Virus record (IMG/VR): IMGVR_UViG_3300027816_000240
Coordinates: 1-35,647 of that record
Direction: 5' to 3' (one strand)
Length of the DNA: 35,647 nucleotides
Source: a virus
Shown: in pieces, positions 1 through 35,507 of the stretch
How the letters are laid out: each line of letters begins with the position of its first letter
Position numbering within the stretch: position 1 is the stretch's first letter
Position numbers and translations under genes: made by a program
Notes under the pieces: generated by a model
Database searches by the model: none
Told to the model about the DNA's origin: nothing
What the model saw: the letters and a program-made list of their open reading frames with translations, nothing else

Positions 1-808
1 GGAGCAGCGCAGCGGTGTTCTCGCCGATATCGGCCAGCGTCGCTTCCCCACGTGCCATCCCTTGGATCTTGGCCAGAGCTTGGTCCGGGGTCATCCCATC
101 TTTTTCCAGTGCTCGAACGATCGCGAGATCCGCCGCTTTGTTCGCGTCGCCGTACCCCAGCGATTGCTTGACTCGTCGGAATGCGGGCATCACGGCGTAC
201 TTGCCCAGCAGCGCCAGAGTACCGGCGGTAGCGCCACCGGCCACCGCTCCTTTAGCGGCCTCTGAACCCCACTCCTCAATCGGCTTCTCGGTCGTACCCA
301 GTGCTGTTGCGGCACCCGCCGCTGCCCCGGTACCGGCGGTACGAGCCACCGTGGGAGCTTTGCCGAATAGCAGACTCGCGAGCTTTGGGCCGAGCGTTTT
401 GGCAGTGGAGGCGGTGAGACCGGGGATAAGCGATGCGCCACCAGTCATTACAGCTGGGGCGATACCGCCCACCACTTGCGCGGCGGTGGAAGACACCGGA
501 TTCTTTTCGCTGTACTCGCGCAGTGCTTCGCGCTCGGATTTTACGAGGTCCTCGTAGTTCCCCTGCCCCATTGCGGAGCGCATTCCGGCCACCGCCTCGT
601 CACCGAATCCGAAGGTCAGCCCTTGCAGCATTTGGCTACCGGCACCGGTCGAAAACGGCGCTGGACGAGGGGCGGCGGGACGGGGAGCCGGAGCGTTTGG
701 AGCGGCAGGAGCACCGGCCTTTTGCGCCTCGAACCGCTTAATCACCGCTTCGGACGTACCGGAAGGGAATTCATAGACCGTGCCGTTAATCACTCGCTCG
801 ATGGTCAT
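1..808 (-). CDS. Large virion-associated protein, N-terminal part (truncated by window edge)
   Basis: Open reading frame from ATG at 808 that runs off the left end without a stop; 269 codons are visible. It begins MTIERVINGTVYEFPSGTSE. An Ala/Pro-rich linker (about residues 30-50) follows, then Gly/Ala-rich stretches that could be hydrophobic helices (about 110-200), then a soluble part containing LEKDGMTPDQALAKIQ and GEATLADIGENTAALL. Large phage virion proteins of the ejection/internal-protein class often carry this last type of motif; that resemblance is from memory. A GGAAGGGA ribosome site lies 6 bases before the start, and the ATG overlaps the previous stop (ATGA). Its position at the distal end of the tail-tip genes fits an injected or tail-associated protein. 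The function remains a guess because the C-terminus is missing. Confidence 0.7.
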   Translation of the reverse strand, partial: MTIERVINGTVYEFPSGTSEAVIKRFEAQKAGAPAAPNAPAPRPAAPRPAPFSTGAGSQMLQGLTFGFGDEAVAGMRSAMGQGNYEDLVKSEREALREYSEKNPVSSTAAQVVGGIAPAVMTGGASLIPGLTASTAKTLGPKLASLLFGKAPTVARTAGTGAAAGAATALGTTEKPIEEWGSEAAKGAVAGGATAGTLALLGKYAVMPAFRRVKQSLGYGDANKAADLAIVRALEKDGMTPDQALAKIQGMARGEATLADIGENTAALL

Positions 809-9713: not shown

Positions 9714-10945
9714 CAGAATGTCCCGCCAGAAATGCCGCCGCTGAAGTAGCCAGTGCCTGTGACTTCAATGCCGTTTGAATCAACTTCAAAAATTTGAGTT
9801 CCGAGAACGGATACGCCGAAACGACCAGCACCCGGGCGGAAAATACCAGTGCTTGGCTCAAGGCCAAAACTGAGCGATGGTCCCCCAGCAGTACCACTGA
9901 TCAAGCTAACAGAAACGCCACCCGGGAATGTTGTGCTGGCGTTCAGCAAGTTGGTCGCATCACAGATCAATGTTGCTTGACCCGGTGGCAAGACTGCGGG
10001 AATAGAGCCAAGCACACCCGTGGTAAATGTCAGAGTGAATGCTCCAGCGTTGCACTGGTTGGAGAGGACGTAAAAGTTAGCCACCGGGGGAACGGTGACA
10101 GTGACGTTTCCCGTCAGCGTTCCGGTGTAGATCTGGATCGTGTTGGCCGCTTCACTGGCTGTCAGGGTGTAAGTTCCAGAGACAATAGGCTTGGTCAACA
10201 CGCCGAACTCAAACTGGGTGCTCACGCCGTAACCAACAGTCACATACTCAGCGCCAGTGGAGACGATAAACGCAGACTCGCTTGGCGCGAAATTCTTAGA
10301 CGCGCCGCCGTCAATACTCCCGCTGGCAGGGGTCATCGTGACCGTTCCGGTTCCATTGTTCTTGAACAAGAAAAACCAGTTGTTTCCAGTTGCGGAGGCA
10401 GTGGGCAAAGTTACCGTTGTTGCACCGCCAGTCCAAACCATGGTTTTCGCCCTGTCGGTGGTCAGGAACGTGTACCCAGCCGTCACCGAAGCAAAGGGAT
10501 GGCTTTGGTTCAGGGTCGCGTTGGATGCCACCAAGCCGGAGCCAGCAAGGGTTGCGGCATCAGCCGCAGATGTCCCAACACCAAAGGCGATGTTGCCCCA
10601 TGTGCCTTGCTCGTCGTTGTTTTCCGTGATGTAGATGTACTTGGCCTCACCAGCGGCAATCGTGATGACGGTGTTCGTGCCAGCAAAGTCTTTGACCGTG
10701 AAGGTGTTGGCCCCCACGTTGCGGATCATGGCGTCATTGCCCACCGAGGTCTGATTTGCCGGAGGCATGAACAGAGACAGGCCAGCAGTCGTGGCCGTGA
10801 CGTCCATGATCCGAGCAGCGTAGTCATCCGTGGCGTTGCCATTGATCGGCCACTCCAGTTGGGTGTTGGCCGCAATGGTGATGGAGCGGTACGAGACGTC
10901 AGTCGGCTGAATGACGTTGCCGGTAAAGGGGCTGTTGTAACTCAT
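9713..10945 (-). CDS. Putative tail fibre/tail-spike-like protein, 410 aa
   Basis: A 410-residue Thr/Gly/Asn-rich beta protein. The N-terminal part (MSYNSPFTGNVIQPTDVSYR...LEWPINGN, about residues 1-120) looks like a virion-attachment domain. It is followed by repeated beta-strand segments such as VTLPTASATGNNWFFLFKNN and NTIQIYTGTLTGNVTVTVPP. The C-terminal block (SFGLEPSTGIFRPGAGRFGV, then a short Gly-rich tail) resembles the end of phage fibre proteins that describe a trimeric shaft or tip. No enzyme motif is visible. The gene overlaps the adaptor stop by four bases (ATGA), and its TGA shares one base with the hub ATG. I infer a receptor-binding or tail-decoration protein attached near the adaptor/hub. 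Confidence 0.6.
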   Translation of the reverse strand: MSYNSPFTGNVIQPTDVSYRSITIAANTQLEWPINGNATDDYAARIMDVTATTAGLSLFMPPANQTSVGNDAMIRNVGANTFTVKDFAGTNTVITIAAGEAKYIYITENNDEQGTWGNIAFGVGTSAADAATLAGSGLVASNATLNQSHPFASVTAGYTFLTTDRAKTMVWTGGATTVTLPTASATGNNWFFLFKNNGTGTVTMTPASGSIDGGASKNFAPSESAFIVSTGAEYVTVGYGVSTQFEFGVLTKPIVSGTYTLTASEAANTIQIYTGTLTGNVTVTVPPVANFYVLSNQCNAGAFTLTFTTGVLGSIPAVLPPGQATLICDATNLLNASTTFPGGVSVSLISGTAGGPSLSFGLEPSTGIFRPGAGRFGVSVLGTQIFEVDSNGIEVTGTGYFSGGISGGTF

Positions 10946-11577
10946 GAATCCACCGCTATAGCTTGACGATCAGCGACCCGGAGTTTATCTTCGGCTTTTA
11001 GCACCTCGATAATCTGGCTATACTCGGCCTTCCACATAGGAACGCGATCATCGTTTTTAAGGAAAGGCATTGCTTGCAACAGCGTGCCGTACAAAAGCGC
11101 TTGAGGCGCATAAATCGTAAACCAGTTCGTCTGATTCGACGAATCGAGTGGTTGAGCACGTTCGTAGTAAAGCACTTCGAAATTATACGCGACGTCTGGC
11201 GTCGGACCCACCAGCCAGTGCGTGTAATCGTAGTCGCAATAGAACAGTGGCTCACCCGTTTGTGCGGGGTCGGGCCAATAGTTACGAATGTATTCATATT
11301 TGCGCGACAGAATGGGCTGGCGCTTACCGCCCACGGTCACATTCATGGACACGGTCTTGTGCCACCGAGCGGGCTTGTCGATCACATTCGCGTTTGCGAC
11401 CATCTGGCTCGTGTTCACGGTCAAATTGCCGAGGAACTTGATCTCCGCTGCGATCACCTGCTCGGCGAGCATGATGAAAAGAGGGATCTTGGCTATCGTC
11501 GCTGCGTCGGTACGTTCCAGATAGCTTTGGACGTCCTCGACCAGCGAGTCGTATGTCATTACCGCTGCGGTAGTCAT
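10942..11577 (-). CDS. Head-tail adaptor (SU10-adaptor-like), 211 aa
   Basis: A 211-residue protein with an N-terminal helical part (YDSLVEDVQSYLERTDAATIAKIPLFIMLAEQVIAAEIKFLG) and a conserved middle with W and P residues (PARWHKTVSMNVTVGG, RKYEYIRNYWPDPAQTGEP, YDYTHWLVGPTPD). It ends in helices (YAPQALLYGTLLQAMPFLKNDD...WKAEYSQIIEVLKAED). This is the layout of phage adaptor proteins of the SU10 type, which form the ring between portal and tail. GGGAG lies 6 bases before the ATG, and a consensus promoter sits directly upstream (11613-11641), so this is the first gene of a separately started transcript. A second possible adaptor (gp4-like) lies at 20790-21863. Confidence 0.6.
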   Translation of the reverse strand: MTTAAVMTYDSLVEDVQSYLERTDAATIAKIPLFIMLAEQVIAAEIKFLGNLTVNTSQMVANANVIDKPARWHKTVSMNVTVGGKRQPILSRKYEYIRNYWPDPAQTGEPLFYCDYDYTHWLVGPTPDVAYNFEVLYYERAQPLDSSNQTNWFTIYAPQALLYGTLLQAMPFLKNDDRVPMWKAEYSQIIEVLKAEDKLRVADRQAIAVDS

Positions 11578-11612: not shown

Positions 11613-11641
11613 ATTATACCAGAGCTTTGCCATAGGGTCAA
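11613..11641 (-). promoter_or_regulatory. Consensus sigma70 promoter with extended -10, upstream of adaptor
   Basis: On the minus strand TTGACC (11641-11636), a 17-bp spacer and TATAAT (11618-11613) preceded by TGG, which makes an extended -10. The TGA of the lysozyme stop codon lies inside the -35 box. It would start a transcript covering adaptor, fibre, hub and the distal virion genes. The AT-rich gap between lysozyme and adaptor has no coding role. Confidence 0.85.
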
Positions 11642-20789: not shown

Positions 20790-21863
20790 TCACCTCGTGT
20801 ACACGGATATATTCGGAGCCCAGTAAATCGGGGATTTGTCGCGCTCTTCCTGCTCGGCCTCGTTAAACGTCTTGTCGGCTTGCTTTTCGAGGTATGCAAC
20901 TCGGTCGAGCGGAACTGTGGGGAGGATCATGCTCATGCGGTGCGCAAGCATGTTACCAATGGCGAGATACCAGCGGTCCGGGATTTCGAGCTGGCCCGAC
21001 AGATCGCCCACATCCATGATCTGGCGCGAGTACCAGACGGTCATCTGGATAAAAGGGTCCGAGGGCGTAGGCCAGAGCACCACCTTCGGCACCGGGATCG
21101 TGCGTTCGAAGTAGAACTGGTAGGGCTGATTCGCCGTGAAGTTCTTGTTCGGCAAGTTCGTGTAGTCGTCGCGGTTCAGACGGCTCATCTGGATCTCGCG
21201 GCTATTATTACCCAGATAGAACTCGCGGAGCGCAAGGACGGTACCACCGGAGGCCACGGCGCGGTATGCGATCACGTTAGCGCCCGGGTCGATGTTCGTC
21301 CAGAGCCACTCATTGTCGGACACGACCACCGCTCCGAGGTCAGTCAGGGTGTTCCACGTGGAACCGTCCACCGAATACTCGTAGCGAATGTTCCACGTAG
21401 CACTACCGCCACCAGCGACGAAGGGTAGGATACCGATCGAGCCAATATATACCGGGTTGTTGCTGCCGTAGTTGACCGAAATGTTCCCGTTCGCCGACGT
21501 CTGCTGGCAGTACGTGTCGATGTCGCCGTCGAACGCGTTGAATACCACACCACCCGCCGAAGTCGCGTAATTCCCGCTCGGACGGTCCATCGTGCGGTAA
21601 AGTACATTGAGCGTGTCGACCGCACCCAACGGTAGTTCGTAGGTGTACTGCTCCGCTTTGAGTCCGATCACGGTCTCGTTGATCGCCCAGTATTGGATAC
21701 CCTTGTTGATCAGCGAGGAGAGGAGATAGAACAGATTGCGTTTGGCCGACACGACCTGCTCGACGGTCAGCTCCTCGGCAAGCTTACCACAAGCACGAGC
21801 GCTATCGTCGATCAGGTTCTGAACGCTGATTACGGTAGTGCCAACGGTGCCTGAATATGCCAT
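20790..21863 (-). CDS. P22 gp4-like head-tail adaptor with inserted discoidin-like domain
   Basis: A 357-residue protein. Residues 10-97 (LIDDSARACGKLAEELTVEQ, LFYLLSSLINKGIQYWAI, YELPLGAVDTLNVLYR) and 219-357 (REIQMSRLNRDDYTNLPNKN, VVLWPTPSDPFIQMTVWYSR, EIPDRWYLAIGNMLAHRM) match the pattern of tail accessory/adaptor proteins that sit under the portal in short-tailed phages. Between them, about 98-218, lies a beta-rich insert with FDGDIDTYCQ, YEYSVDGSTWNTLTDLG and ALREFYLGN, the signature style of discoidin (F5/8 type C) sugar-binding domains. The insert would place a carbohydrate-binding domain on the connector. It lies downstream of the basic DUF-type gene. Adaptor assignment is moderately sure, insert fold less so. 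Confidence 0.62.
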   Translation of the reverse strand: MAYSGTVGTTVISVQNLIDDSARACGKLAEELTVEQVVSAKRNLFYLLSSLINKGIQYWAINETVIGLKAEQYTYELPLGAVDTLNVLYRTMDRPSGNYATSAGGVVFNAFDGDIDTYCQQTSANGNISVNYGSNNPVYIGSIGILPFVAGGGSATWNIRYEYSVDGSTWNTLTDLGAVVVSDNEWLWTNIDPGANVIAYRAVASGGTVLALREFYLGNNSREIQMSRLNRDDYTNLPNKNFTANQPYQFYFERTIPVPKVVLWPTPSDPFIQMTVWYSRQIMDVGDLSGQLEIPDRWYLAIGNMLAHRMSMILPTVPLDRVAYLEKQADKTFNEAEQEERDKSPIYWAPNISVYTR

Positions 21864-21866
21864 CTA

Positions 21867-22286
21867 TTACCACCCCGGACAGTTCCAACGTTTAAGTGAT
21901 GCGGCTTTCCGGGTCGGACGACCTTTATCGTCTTTCAATGGCCCCGGGTTGCCCTCCATTCTGGCGCAGAACGAATCTTTGCGCGGCCCACCTTGCGGCT
22001 GAGGGGCTTTAAGATCGCTGCCAGTTGCACGATTATACTTCTCTCGACCCTTTTTTGTCAACCCCGCGCCTTGACTCGCCGGGAGCTTTTCACCCCGACC
22101 GATCGACAACGATACGCCGCCACCCCCAGCCTTCTTGACCGGGAGCTTACTGTACGCCTTTTTGCCCACATTGGACTCGGTGTACTCGGCGGCTTTTGCG
22201 GGGGACATCCCTACGCGTTTGGCCACCTTTGGATCGTTCTCGACCGCTTTCATCAAGCGGAACTGGGCCTGAGACTTTGCGGGCAT
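21867..22286 (-). CDS. Small basic phage protein (DUF6321-like C-terminus), 139 aa
   Basis: A 139-residue, strongly basic protein. The N-terminus MPAKSQAQFRLMKAVENDPK with SPAKAAEYTESN recalls the DUF3008 style. The C-terminal half contains LPASQGAGLTKKGREKYNRA, SDLKAPQPQGGPRKDSFCARM and ASLKRWNC, which I recognise as the DUF6321-type motif found in environmental phage proteins. Function is unknown; a nucleic-acid-contacting virion or assembly protein is plausible from its charge. The codons for LTKKGREKYN carry a complete consensus promoter (22032-22061). Two bases separate it from the preceding stop and three from the adaptor gene. Confidence 0.68.
   Translation of the reverse strand: MPAKSQAQFRLMKAVENDPKVAKRVGMSPAKAAEYTESNVGKKAYSKLPVKKAGGGGVSLSIGRGEKLPASQGAGLTKKGREKYNRATGSDLKAPQPQGGPRKDSFCARMEGNPGPLKDDKGRPTRKAASLKRWNCPGW
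22032..22061 (-). promoter_or_regulatory. Intragenic consensus promoter (TTGACA-18-TATAAT)
   Basis: On the minus strand TTGACA (22061-22056), an 18-bp spacer and TATAAT (22037-22032) lie within the coding sequence of the 139-aa basic protein, in frame, read as Leu-Thr-Lys...Tyr-Asn. It would start a transcript for the adaptor and tail-fibre genes just downstream. Both boxes match the sigma70 consensus at 6/6. Confidence 0.75.
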
Positions 22287-23892: not shown

Positions 23893-24807
23893 TTAGACGC
23901 CGGGGGTACCGTACATTGCGCGTGGATCTGTGAAACCGAGATCGTAACGCTCTGTCGCCTTGTAGCGCATAGAGTCGGTCTCGAAATCACCTTCCATCGT
24001 CTTCTCCAGAGCACGACGCATCATCAGCTTCATGCCTTCTGGAGCGTCGGTCTGGACCCACCACGCATTAGCGTTGGTCAAACGGCTCAACACTGCAGCG
24101 CCTTCGTCCAACAGGCCGATAGACTTCACAGGGTTGATGTCGTTGTTGGTCGTACCGGCGCGGAGCACCGACTTGAGCAACACTTCGGCTTGGAACACGT
24201 TGCCGGGAGCCACGACGAGTTGACGTGGGACCAGACGGATCTTCTTGCCGTTGTTGTCCACCGCTTGACGGATCTGGATCAACATCTGTTCCAGAGAAGT
24301 CTGGGACAGGTTGGCCGCAGTCGACAGCAAGTTGGAGAAAGTGCCGTTCACGATGGGGTGCGAAGCGGAGTTCAGTTGCACGCCGTCGCCGCCGGGATAG
24401 CTGGCGTTGAAAGCGCGGTTCAGAACGTTCGCAGCCAGCGTCTCTTTGGTCTCAATCAGGGATTGAGCCAAATGCTTGGCGTACACTTGGCCGATACGGA
24501 TGTGGTCGCCGTCTTCCACGAGCACTTTGGTCAACGCGAAGGCCAAGCCATACACGTTGTACACGTAGCGCTTCAGGAACAGCACGCCGCCTTGCTGGTA
24601 GGACACTGGAGTGCCGTCCGGCAATTGGGGAGCCGCACCGAAACCGTACAGGACGGGTTCTTCGTGGTAGTTACGTGGAATGCCTTGTTCCTCGCGGAAC
24701 ACGCGTGACCACTCGTCTTTACGCTGTTCGTAGATACCGTCGAAGCACTCGTTCAGAATGGGTTCGACAATACTACGAAAGTCGGTACTGCGCATTGGAG
24801 CTGCCAT
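23893..24807 (-). CDS. Major capsid protein (Mu gpT-type), 304 aa
   Basis: A 304-residue protein with the hallmarks of an HK97-fold capsid subunit of the Mu gpT type. It has an N-terminal helix with FRSIVEPILNECFDGIYEQR, then DEWSRVFREEQGIPRNYHEE and a long E-loop-like segment. ALTKVLVEDGDHIRIGQVYAKHLAQSL is followed by IETKETLAANVLNRAFNASY and the typical GKKIRLVPRQLVVAPGNVFQAEVLLKS block. The C-terminus holds ALSKTMEG-like and RYDLGFTDPRAMYG motifs. It forms the icosahedral shell with the scaffold and portal encoded upstream. AGGAGGG lies 7 bases before the ATG and a UUCG hairpin follows, fitting high expression. Confidence 0.9.
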   Translation of the reverse strand: MAAPMRSTDFRSIVEPILNECFDGIYEQRKDEWSRVFREEQGIPRNYHEEPVLYGFGAAPQLPDGTPVSYQQGGVLFLKRYVYNVYGLAFALTKVLVEDGDHIRIGQVYAKHLAQSLIETKETLAANVLNRAFNASYPGGDGVQLNSASHPIVNGTFSNLLSTAANLSQTSLEQMLIQIRQAVDNNGKKIRLVPRQLVVAPGNVFQAEVLLKSVLRAGTTNNDINPVKSIGLLDEGAAVLSRLTNANAWWVQTDAPEGMKLMMRRALEKTMEGDFETDSMRYKATERYDLGFTDPRAMYGTPGV

Positions 24808-24822
24808 GATTCACTCCCTCCT

Positions 24823-25392
24823 TTAGATAGCTGTACCAGCAGCAGGAGCAAACTGGTACTCACTGATGTTGGCGCGAACAATGACGAATGCATCGCCCCA
24901 TGCATTATCTGGGTAGGGTGCGATGTCCAAGATGCGCATTTGCGCCGAGTTGCCCGCACCGGCGAGGGTGGTGGACAGCGTGCACTGCGACAGGCCGGTG
25001 GTGGTGGAACCAGCGGTGACGTTGCTCAGGTCAGCTTCGTCGCCGATGCTGGTCTGGGCCAGAGTGCCGTCGCTCTGGATTTCGTACACGATCTGCTGAT
25101 CAGCGTAGAAATAGGCGACGATGTCGGTACCAGAGGTACTGGCGGGCCAGTAGTTGGAAACACGACGACGACCGGTAGTGTCAGTAAACTCGACACCAGC
25201 GAAGCCGCCGACGAAGGCTTGTCCAGCAGCTGCGGGTTCGATGACACCGCCAGTGACGTAACGCACTGGTTGACCTTTGAGAATGTTCGAGCCGTAGCCC
25301 GACACGATGCCGCCAGTCAGCGCTTGAGCGCGATCCAAACCGGAAGGGTGGAAAGCGGGGCGCAGACCGAACGGAGCATTTGTTGCAGACAT
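24823..25392 (-). CDS. Head decoration/minor capsid protein, 189 aa
   Basis: A 189-residue beta protein starting MSATNAPFGLRPAFHPSGLD, with GIVSGYGSNILKGQPVRYVT, GQAFVGGFAGVEFTDTTGRR, VYEIQSDG and ending NISEYQFAPAAGTAI. This NAPFG(L/F)RP...SGYG...GVF(A)GV layout is common in phage genomes directly before or after the capsid gene; it is usually called a capsid-associated or decoration protein. Fifteen bases separate it from the capsid gene, and both lie below the promoter inside the scaffold gene. It probably binds the outside of the shell as a cement protein; that is inference. Confidence 0.6.
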   Translation of the reverse strand: MSATNAPFGLRPAFHPSGLDRAQALTGGIVSGYGSNILKGQPVRYVTGGVIEPAAAGQAFVGGFAGVEFTDTTGRRRVSNYWPASTSGTDIVAYFYADQQIVYEIQSDGTLAQTSIGDEADLSNVTAGSTTTGLSQCTLSTTLAGAGNSAQMRILDIAPYPDNAWGDAFVIVRANISEYQFAPAAGTAI

Positions 25393-25422: not shown

Positions 25423-25962
25423 TCACGCGAAATGCGGGACGGGCATGGGTTTGTCCAATTCCGCGATGCCTTCGCCCTCAATCTGACCAAGACGCTTGCC
25501 ATTACTGTCGCGTCCCACTTGCTGCTCAGCTTGAATACGGATTTTGTCCGCCTCATCCTGAGGTGCGTGGTGGTGCAACTCCGCCATAATCTCCTGATAT
25601 ACATCCTCAGGAAGCTTGTACAGCAGCATTTCATTGCAAGCGATGAACCCAGTGTGCTCACCGGCTTTAACTTTGTAGTTCTCAAAGCCCGGAACATCTT
25701 CGACTTTTACTGGTTCATAACCCATGCGCAAGCGCTTGTGGATAGGGTCGTACCCATTGGTAGTTGAAAGCCAACATACGTGGAATCCCGGAATTGCCGG
25801 GGGTTTTGGAAGGGACTCTTGAATCCATTCCGATCTGAACATCCTACGACGTTCCTGCGCACTCGCCAGTTCTTCCGTTGCTGCGCCGCGTTGACTGTCC
25901 TGCTCTGCGCGGGACTCGCGACCACCAGCGGTAAGATTCTTTTTCAATCGATCGTCTCTCAT
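25423..25962 (-). CDS. Conserved head-region protein, 179 aa
   Basis: A 179-residue charged protein: a disordered basic N-terminus with Glu/Arg repeats, then RRRMFRSEWIQESLPKPPAI, PGFHVCWLSTTN, RMGYEPVKVEDVPGFENYKV and CNEMLLYKLPEDVYQEIMAE with a HHHAP motif. These conserved phrases recur in uncharacterised proteins between scaffold and capsid genes of environmental phages in my recollection. It has no catalytic triad or metal cluster that I can defend. Position suggests a scaffold partner or head-completion protein. Confidence 0.6.
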   Translation of the reverse strand: MRDDRLKKNLTAGGRESRAEQDSQRGAATEELASAQERRRMFRSEWIQESLPKPPAIPGFHVCWLSTTNGYDPIHKRLRMGYEPVKVEDVPGFENYKVKAGEHTGFIACNEMLLYKLPEDVYQEIMAELHHHAPQDEADKIRIQAEQQVGRDSNGKRLGQIEGEGIAELDKPMPVPHFA

Positions 25963-25976
25963 GTGAATTCCCCTTA

Positions 25977-26975
25977 TTACTTGGTTTGCATGCGGTCGTA
26001 TTCCGCATACTTACGAATCATCTTGTTGCGTTCGGTAAGATTATCCCACCGACCGGCCTCTTTGATCGCTTTAACACGCTCAGGCGACAATCGGAACTCG
26101 CCGGGACGAGCGCTCGATGTGTGTTCACGGCCTGAAGATGTTACCACGCTGCGGGGTCTCCGTTCTGACGATCGACTATTTGTTTCGCCATTGCCGCTAT
26201 TATAACGGTGCGGCAAGTATTTTGTCAATCTATTATCCAGCTCTTCCCAGTACTCGGCGGTCTTGGGGTCCCAGCCCTCAGCCGTCAATTTCTCGTCGAT
26301 CTTGGTGGCCACGGTCGAGTCCATGTCGTCCCCGTTCGGGTCGTACCAATCGTTCCGAGCCATCCAGTCGGAGGCGTGACGCTTGAGCAGGGGGTCCGGT
26401 GCCTTTGGCACTGAGTGCTTGGGTGAGTCGTTGCTCACAGCCTTTTTGCGCAGCGCCTCGAGCGCCTCCACCTGCCTTCGAGCCTCGTACCAAGCCTCCT
26501 GCGCCTCAACCGACGCACTACCGTCGGCCATTTCGGTCGCCTCTTTGATCTTCATCTTGGCATACTGCAGCCTCAAATGCCCATCTTCGATCGCCTTGTC
26601 CAGTCGAGCAAGGTCCGAACCGGCTGTGCGCTTTTCGAGAACCGCAAGACGCTCGGCCATCTGCTCGTTCTGGCGTTTCAGCGAGTTAATCAGGTGGTTC
26701 GACTCGGTAGCTTTGGCCTTCTGGAGCTTCTTCTTGAGCTGTCGTTCATCTCGACGGGCCAGTCGGAGCGCTTCCCGTGCCGGATCGGCGTCCGGAATAT
26801 TGTCTCGGGGGTCGTCGTGGTCGTCGTCGATACTTCCACCGCTATTGTGGCCTTCACCATCGTCTCCAGCGGCTTCCGAAGTACCTCCGGGTACCTCCTC
26901 GGGGGTCAGGAGGGCGACAGCGGAACCGTCCGCTTCCTCCGCGACCTGCAAGTCCATTTTGTCTTGGGGGTTCAT
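25977..26975 (-). CDS. Putative scaffolding protein, 332 aa
   Basis: A 332-residue, highly charged, mostly helical protein. The acidic N-terminus is rich in Asp/Glu/Gly (residues 1-70), then comes a long coiled coil (RRDERQLKKKLQKAKATESN...LKRQNEQMAERLAVLEKR, about 75-190). A conserved soluble part (DWMARNDWYDPNGDDMDSTV, EYWEELDNRLTKYLPHRY) and a basic C-terminus follow. This composition, and the place just before the decoration and capsid genes, fits an internal scaffold. The codons for RLTKYLPHRYN form a consensus promoter (26199-26228). The Asn/Ser/Arg-rich stretch after it is less conserved and could tolerate that sequence constraint. The ATG overlaps the co-chaperonin stop by four bases. 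Confidence 0.7.
   Translation of the reverse strand: MNPQDKMDLQVAEEADGSAVALLTPEEVPGGTSEAAGDDGEGHNSGGSIDDDHDDPRDNIPDADPAREALRLARRDERQLKKKLQKAKATESNHLINSLKRQNEQMAERLAVLEKRTAGSDLARLDKAIEDGHLRLQYAKMKIKEATEMADGSASVEAQEAWYEARRQVEALEALRKKAVSNDSPKHSVPKAPDPLLKRHASDWMARNDWYDPNGDDMDSTVATKIDEKLTAEGWDPKTAEYWEELDNRLTKYLPHRYNSGNGETNSRSSERRPRSVVTSSGREHTSSARPGEFRLSPERVKAIKEAGRWDNLTERNKMIRKYAEYDRMQTK
26199..26228 (-). promoter_or_regulatory. Intragenic consensus promoter in the scaffold gene
   Basis: On the minus strand TTGACA (26228-26223), 18-bp spacer, TATAAT (26204-26199), all in frame within the scaffold coding sequence, read as Leu-Thr-Lys...Tyr-Asn. The flanks (GATTGACAAA and TATAATAG) are the same as in the promoter at 35478-35507. 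It would add transcription of the 179-aa, decoration and capsid genes, which must be made in large amounts. Confidence 0.8.
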
Positions 26976-35477: not shown

Positions 35478-35507
35478 ATTATAACACGGGTGCTGTACCT
35501 TTGTCAA
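35478..35507 (-). promoter_or_regulatory. Consensus sigma70 promoter, TTGACA-18-TATAAT
   Basis: On the minus strand TTGACA (35507-35502), an 18-bp spacer and TATAAT (35483-35478), both 6/6 consensus. It starts 12 bases after the 37-aa zinc-ribbon stop and gives a short leader before the 91-aa gene. It is the most upstream promoter of the module seen in this window and shares flanks with the intragenic promoter at 26199-26228. Confidence 0.88.

Follow-up and report, generated by a model that had tools for sequence, protein, structure and literature searches.

A probable sigma70-type promoter kept in frame within the putative scaffold gene of an uncultured tailed phage

Gene order and promoter-like sites in the window

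The window (the whole stretch of DNA analysed) is a 35.6 kb IMG/VR virus record, metagenomic like the other sequences analysed here, and derives from a tailed phage of ~57 kb, with Caulobacter phage RW and Caudoviricetes ctpbd312 as its named relatives. A weak host hint, beta-proteobacterial, comes from MAG contigs, which might themselves be phage sequence binned in error. The palindromes CCGCGG, GGGCCC and GAGCTC are strongly depleted in window-clade loci, possibly reflecting restriction avoidance. Leftward from 35.4 kb, small genes are followed by those for the small and large terminase subunits, the portal and a GroES-like protein, then by a putative scaffold gene, two unassigned genes, the major capsid gene and neck, tail and lysis genes. 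The putative scaffold gene (25977–26975, minus strand; 332 aa) owes its label to gene order; its product has no Pfam family, corresponds to phrog_28737 (function not known) and gives weak PDB matches (E >= 0.14). Directly upstream is a GroES-like co-chaperonin gene (PF00166; 26972–27412, minus strand), and the two genes adjoin in Caulobacter phage RW too. Downstream, all on the minus strand, lie 25423–25962 (phrog_36003), 24823–25392 (phrog_37556) and, third, the major capsid protein gene (PF25209, Phage_capsid_4; 23893–24807). The ‘decoration’ label for genes in this part is tentative, having been assigned solely by synteny.

Exact matches to TTGACA-15..19-TATAAT occur three times in the window, versus 0.01 expected from dinucleotide shuffles, each with an 18-base spacer and each on the strand of the genes; two are in frame inside genes and one is intergenic. 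Promoter 1 (26199–26228, minus strand) reads TTGACA AAATACTTGCCGCACCGT TATAAT, with the -35 box at 26228–26223 and the -10 box at 26204–26199. It lies within the open reading frame of the putative scaffold gene, on the coding strand, and its bases form in-frame codons for Leu250-Thr-Lys-Tyr-Leu-Pro-His-Arg-Tyr-Asn259. The boxes agree with the sigma70 consensus at 12/12 positions, and the spacer of 18 is within the 16–18 bases typical of such promoters. A reading of the window made without database searches (the sequence-only reading) had described TTGACA-18-TATAAT in frame in the scaffold gene, and both sequence and frame check out. Transcription from promoter 1 is predicted to start at about 26192, some 7 bases beyond the -10 box. 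Terminator-like stems nearby number 15, versus 17.4 in shuffles; being no commoner than expected, they are not taken to mark an operon boundary. A leaderless ORF read from promoter 1 was considered and rejected.

Promoter 2 (22032–22061, minus strand; TTGACA, 18-base spacer, TATAAT), absent from the sequence-only reading, is in frame within a gene for a 139-aa DUF6321 protein (PF19846; 21867–22286, minus strand; E 1.8e-21, 77 bits versus a cutoff of 28.5), where it is spelled by the codons for LTKKGREKYN. The two in-gene sites thus share one L-T-x6-Y-N skeleton. The first full gene downstream of promoter 2 (20790–21863, minus strand) has a below-cutoff match to an SU10 adaptor (PF24175, E 1e-4).

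The intergenic copy (35478–35507, minus strand) belongs to a dispersed class, also found at loci L163–L208, with the form TTGACA-N4-T[AG][TC]-N2-CACC[CT]GTGT-TATAAT. Here the spacer includes CACCCGTGT, with TG before the -10 box, and across the class it carries TA plus CACC[CT]GTGT directly before TATAAT. Both in-gene copies lack the TG before the -10 box and the CACC[CT]GTG spacer motif; in-gene and intergenic copies may therefore differ in regulation, since these features are confined to the latter. The CAC..GTG arrangement in the intergenic spacer looks operator-like and is found in neither in-gene promoter. A further intergenic site with one mismatch (TTGACC-17-TATAAT, TGG before the -10 box; 11613–11641, minus strand) precedes the gene at 10942–11577; similar sites lie at a similar distance in two relatives (G001 and G002), and it is likely a conserved intergenic promoter. 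Most near-complete relatives in the window clade carry two to seven exact copies, all on the gene strand. Five relatives without the scaffold promoter (G011, G012, G017, G020 and G022) have no copy anywhere, even when one mismatch is allowed. The in-gene sites look like part of a promoter system rather than an isolated motif.

The sequence-only reading had also held that the flanks of promoter 1 match those of the intergenic promoter at 35478–35507. Both sites do have GATTGACAAA and TATAATAG. Relatives do not keep the bases after TATAAT, however, as codon 260, immediately following, differs among them (S/G/A/V), and that part of the match is therefore a coincidence. The AG that follows the -10 box at both sites varies likewise and is given no weight here.

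Codon conservation at the two in-gene sites

Among 160 related loci (1.59 Mb), exact matches to the TTGACA/TATAAT promoter number 74. Every one of them has an 18-base spacer, faces along the genes and falls at the scaffold or DUF6321 in-gene site. The box codons of the scaffold site are nearly fixed (TTG 28/29, ACA 27/29, TAT 26/29, AAT 29/29) in 29 nonredundant relatives with the LT..YN peptide, and the spacer codons for Tyr253, Leu254 and Pro255 are as variable as those elsewhere in the gene. When all IMG/VR contigs were surveyed for LTKYLPHRYN, whatever the codons used, 31 nonredundant genes were obtained, with TTGACA in 29, TATAAT in 28 and both boxes exact in 27; the spacer Tyr is TAC in 21 and TAT in 10, versus TAT in 28 and TAC in three for the box Tyr. 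Related sequences make such raw counts non-independent, and the main statistic is therefore the number of changes on a tree, built without the promoter site, with box codons compared with degeneracy-matched columns. The four box codons changed five times versus 36.2 expected (P at the 5e-5 floor) over a tree length of 7.4 substitutions per site, on which other codons change about nine times. The comparison of synonymous codons that the sequence-only reading had proposed thus gives frozen box codons beside free spacer codons in the same peptide, and the boxes are conserved beyond amino-acid need. Codons AAT AGA upstream of promoter 1 are also constrained in the window clade. The boxes have been lost in some relatives of the window clade, which have TTGTCG or TACGGT, and promoter 1 is thus dispensable in some lineages.

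At the DUF6321 site the peptide LTxKGRxKYN is present in 73/73 nonredundant relatives and in at least 221 nonredundant genes in the IMG/VR survey. Among the matches listed its codons are near-random outside the window clade (TTG 57, CTG 52, CTT 51; TAC 152, TAT 69 overall), and both boxes are exact in just 13, of which 12 belong to that clade. When the 67 loci holding both genes were compared, TTGACN..TATAAT was present at the DUF6321 site in 21/21 with the scaffold promoter and 1/46 without it (Fisher P 2e-16, overstated since the loci are related). Codon choice on a universal peptide appears to have created a second exact consensus promoter.

The corresponding site in the sister clade

Sister-clade phages have LQK..LPHRYT in place of LTK..RYN, and the corresponding codons (TTG 34/35, TAT 39/39, ACT 39/39) give TTGCAA-18-TATACT. 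These box codons changed once on the tree versus 36.3 expected. The sister clade thus keeps a promoter-like -10 box despite different amino acids; its -35 box, TTGCAA, is weak. On the gene strand in this clade, none of 4,095 hexamers is more depleted than TATAAT (0 seen, 29 expected), and TATACT is depleted outside the scaffold site (8 versus 25 expected), which accounts for 45 of its 53 copies. That -10 boxes should be purged elsewhere and retained at the scaffold site is the prediction of a real promoter. In bacterial genomes, -10 motifs that do not belong to true promoters have been found to be selected against (PMC1939733); the same depletion is seen in the sister-clade phages, although these are uncultured phages with one in-gene exception retained.

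Scaffold genes of the sister clade (e.g. L128, L139 and L147) have CTTGAC-N5-CTTGCAA before TATACT. The two CTTG steps, 11 bases apart, are synonymously constrained, as are the CTTGAC/CGC codons upstream of the -10 box, and this arrangement could be an activator site. Elsewhere in sister-clade genomes the motif was sought and not found. The exact TTGACA-18-TATAAT motif has one copy in 19 sister-clade and other records, in a record (G027) that belongs to the window clade as judged by its scaffold motif.

Homologues of the putative scaffold protein show, for the most part, little or no variation at residues 250, 252–256 and 258. The residues that change between clades are 251 and 259, which are Thr/Asn in one and Gln or Ser/Thr in the other, and it is their codons that complete the boxes. 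The data are consistent with the promoter dictating these two residues, protein-level drift being the alternative. In the broader proposal, the head protein has the amino acids it does at 251 and 259 because of the promoter, and the universal L-T-x6-Y-N peptide of DUF6321 separately gave rise to a second promoter purely by synonymous change, so that regulatory DNA and conserved peptide co-evolved twice on one skeleton. It has about an even chance of being right.

Interpretation and comparison with known systems

The probability that a conserved L-T-x6-Y-N peptide is spelled by chance with promoter-like codons is very small. The sequence-only reading had expected CTG, ACC, TAC and AAC here, and these are indeed the commonest codons in related genes (0.33, 0.41, 0.66 and 0.53). 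From the usage of TTG, ACA, TAT and AAT (0.23, 0.25, 0.34 and 0.47), the chance that a single gene with this peptide happens to spell the boxes is about 0.9%, and in DUF6321 the LT..YN peptide does occur in phages without the promoter. However, codons frozen over 7.4 substitutions per site, and a second site that accompanies the first in 21/21 loci, are incompatible with such spelling, which the codon survey, tree count and co-occurrence refute. The claim that selection rather than chance is at work is thus borne out by the frozen box codons and by their tracking with the second in-gene site and the intergenic copies. Selection for some other DNA or RNA function at this place (as an operator, in packaging or replication, or through mRNA structure) is improbable. 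The constrained codons upstream, AAT AGA in one clade and CTTGAC/CGC in the other, fit this idea, and selection therefore covers more than the two hexamers, but the frozen letters are sigma70 boxes at promoter spacing with a free middle, they point in the direction of the genes, and boxes identical to them precede gene starts at intergenic sites.

Promoter activity could also take forms other than a constitutive capsid booster. Dependence on an activator encoded by phage or host, or mainly early use, would be in keeping with the paired CTTG steps before TATACT in the sister clade, the strict 18-base spacing and the extra spacer motif of the intergenic class; we consider it rather unlikely, because the window-clade boxes match the consensus at every position and sigma70 promoters with 12/12 consensus boxes in general need no activator. 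Nested scaffold products are known in lambda, a precedent for an internal promoter yielding a short protein from the 3′ end of the scaffold gene. Here this is highly improbable and was rejected, since the sole in-frame Met after the predicted start is close to the C-terminus, and an ATG that follows the box in another frame is replaced by ACG in many relatives.

With high probability, the site is a functional internal promoter used by host sigma70, kept in coding sequence by selection at the DNA level and feeding the capsid genes. TTGACA/TATAAT, in the 3′ quarter of the putative scaffold gene, would be recognised by the host's RNA polymerase carrying the housekeeping sigma factor, and initiation near the predicted start would give a shorter mRNA that spans the major capsid gene and the two unassigned genes before it. 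On top of transcripts reading through from upstream, this mRNA would increase the amount of capsid message over that of the terminase, portal and scaffold genes, so that extra capsid message would very probably come from inside the operon; promoter 2, of the same design, would re-start transcription for genes after the capsid block. The purpose suggested by the sequence-only reading, more capsid and decoration mRNA, is plausible on this gene order. A phage Sigma70_r2 protein was not found in 22 relatives, in a search that detected its positive controls; a T7-type polymerase (PF00940) gave no match in 22 relatives, though the control of that search was also silent.

T7 offers a counterpart: its phi9 and phi10 promoters lie around the scaffold and capsid genes, so that capsid expression in the late region is boosted by an additional promoter. 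Those promoters, however, are 23 bases long, of a different sequence and read by the phage's own polymerase, whereas the boxes here are of sigma70 type. In phiX174 the -35 box of promoter PD lies inside gene C, and synonymous and non-synonymous changes there both cut transcription (PMC3003669). PD is likewise a sigma-factor promoter within phage coding sequence that feeds structural genes, but phiX174 has an ssDNA genome in which genes overlap heavily, in contrast to the ~57-kb tailed phage studied here, which has two in-gene perfect-consensus promoters with 18-base spacing, known from comparison alone. Host-type sigma70 promoters P1–P3 of LUZ100, mapped by ONT-cappable-seq (PMC10134795), have similar near-consensus sequences used by host polymerase; they drive the early region, whereas two of those described here are inside late structural genes. 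No prior report of the promoter 1 site, of promoters in Caulobacter phage RW or of DUF6321 was found in open-licence papers. Promoters inside phage coding sequence are already known, and the present case stands out for how cleanly its evolution can be traced and for its two in-gene sites on one peptide skeleton.

Here nature provides a clear example of a single stretch of DNA under two codes at once, with a built-in control in relatives that have the same peptide and do not use the promoter. Codon surveys of this kind can reveal likely promoters in uncultured phages from genome sequence, and synonymous changes in promoter-bearing genes need not be silent. For this large, abundant, uncultured family of aquatic phages, the codon record predicts a transcription start for the capsid.
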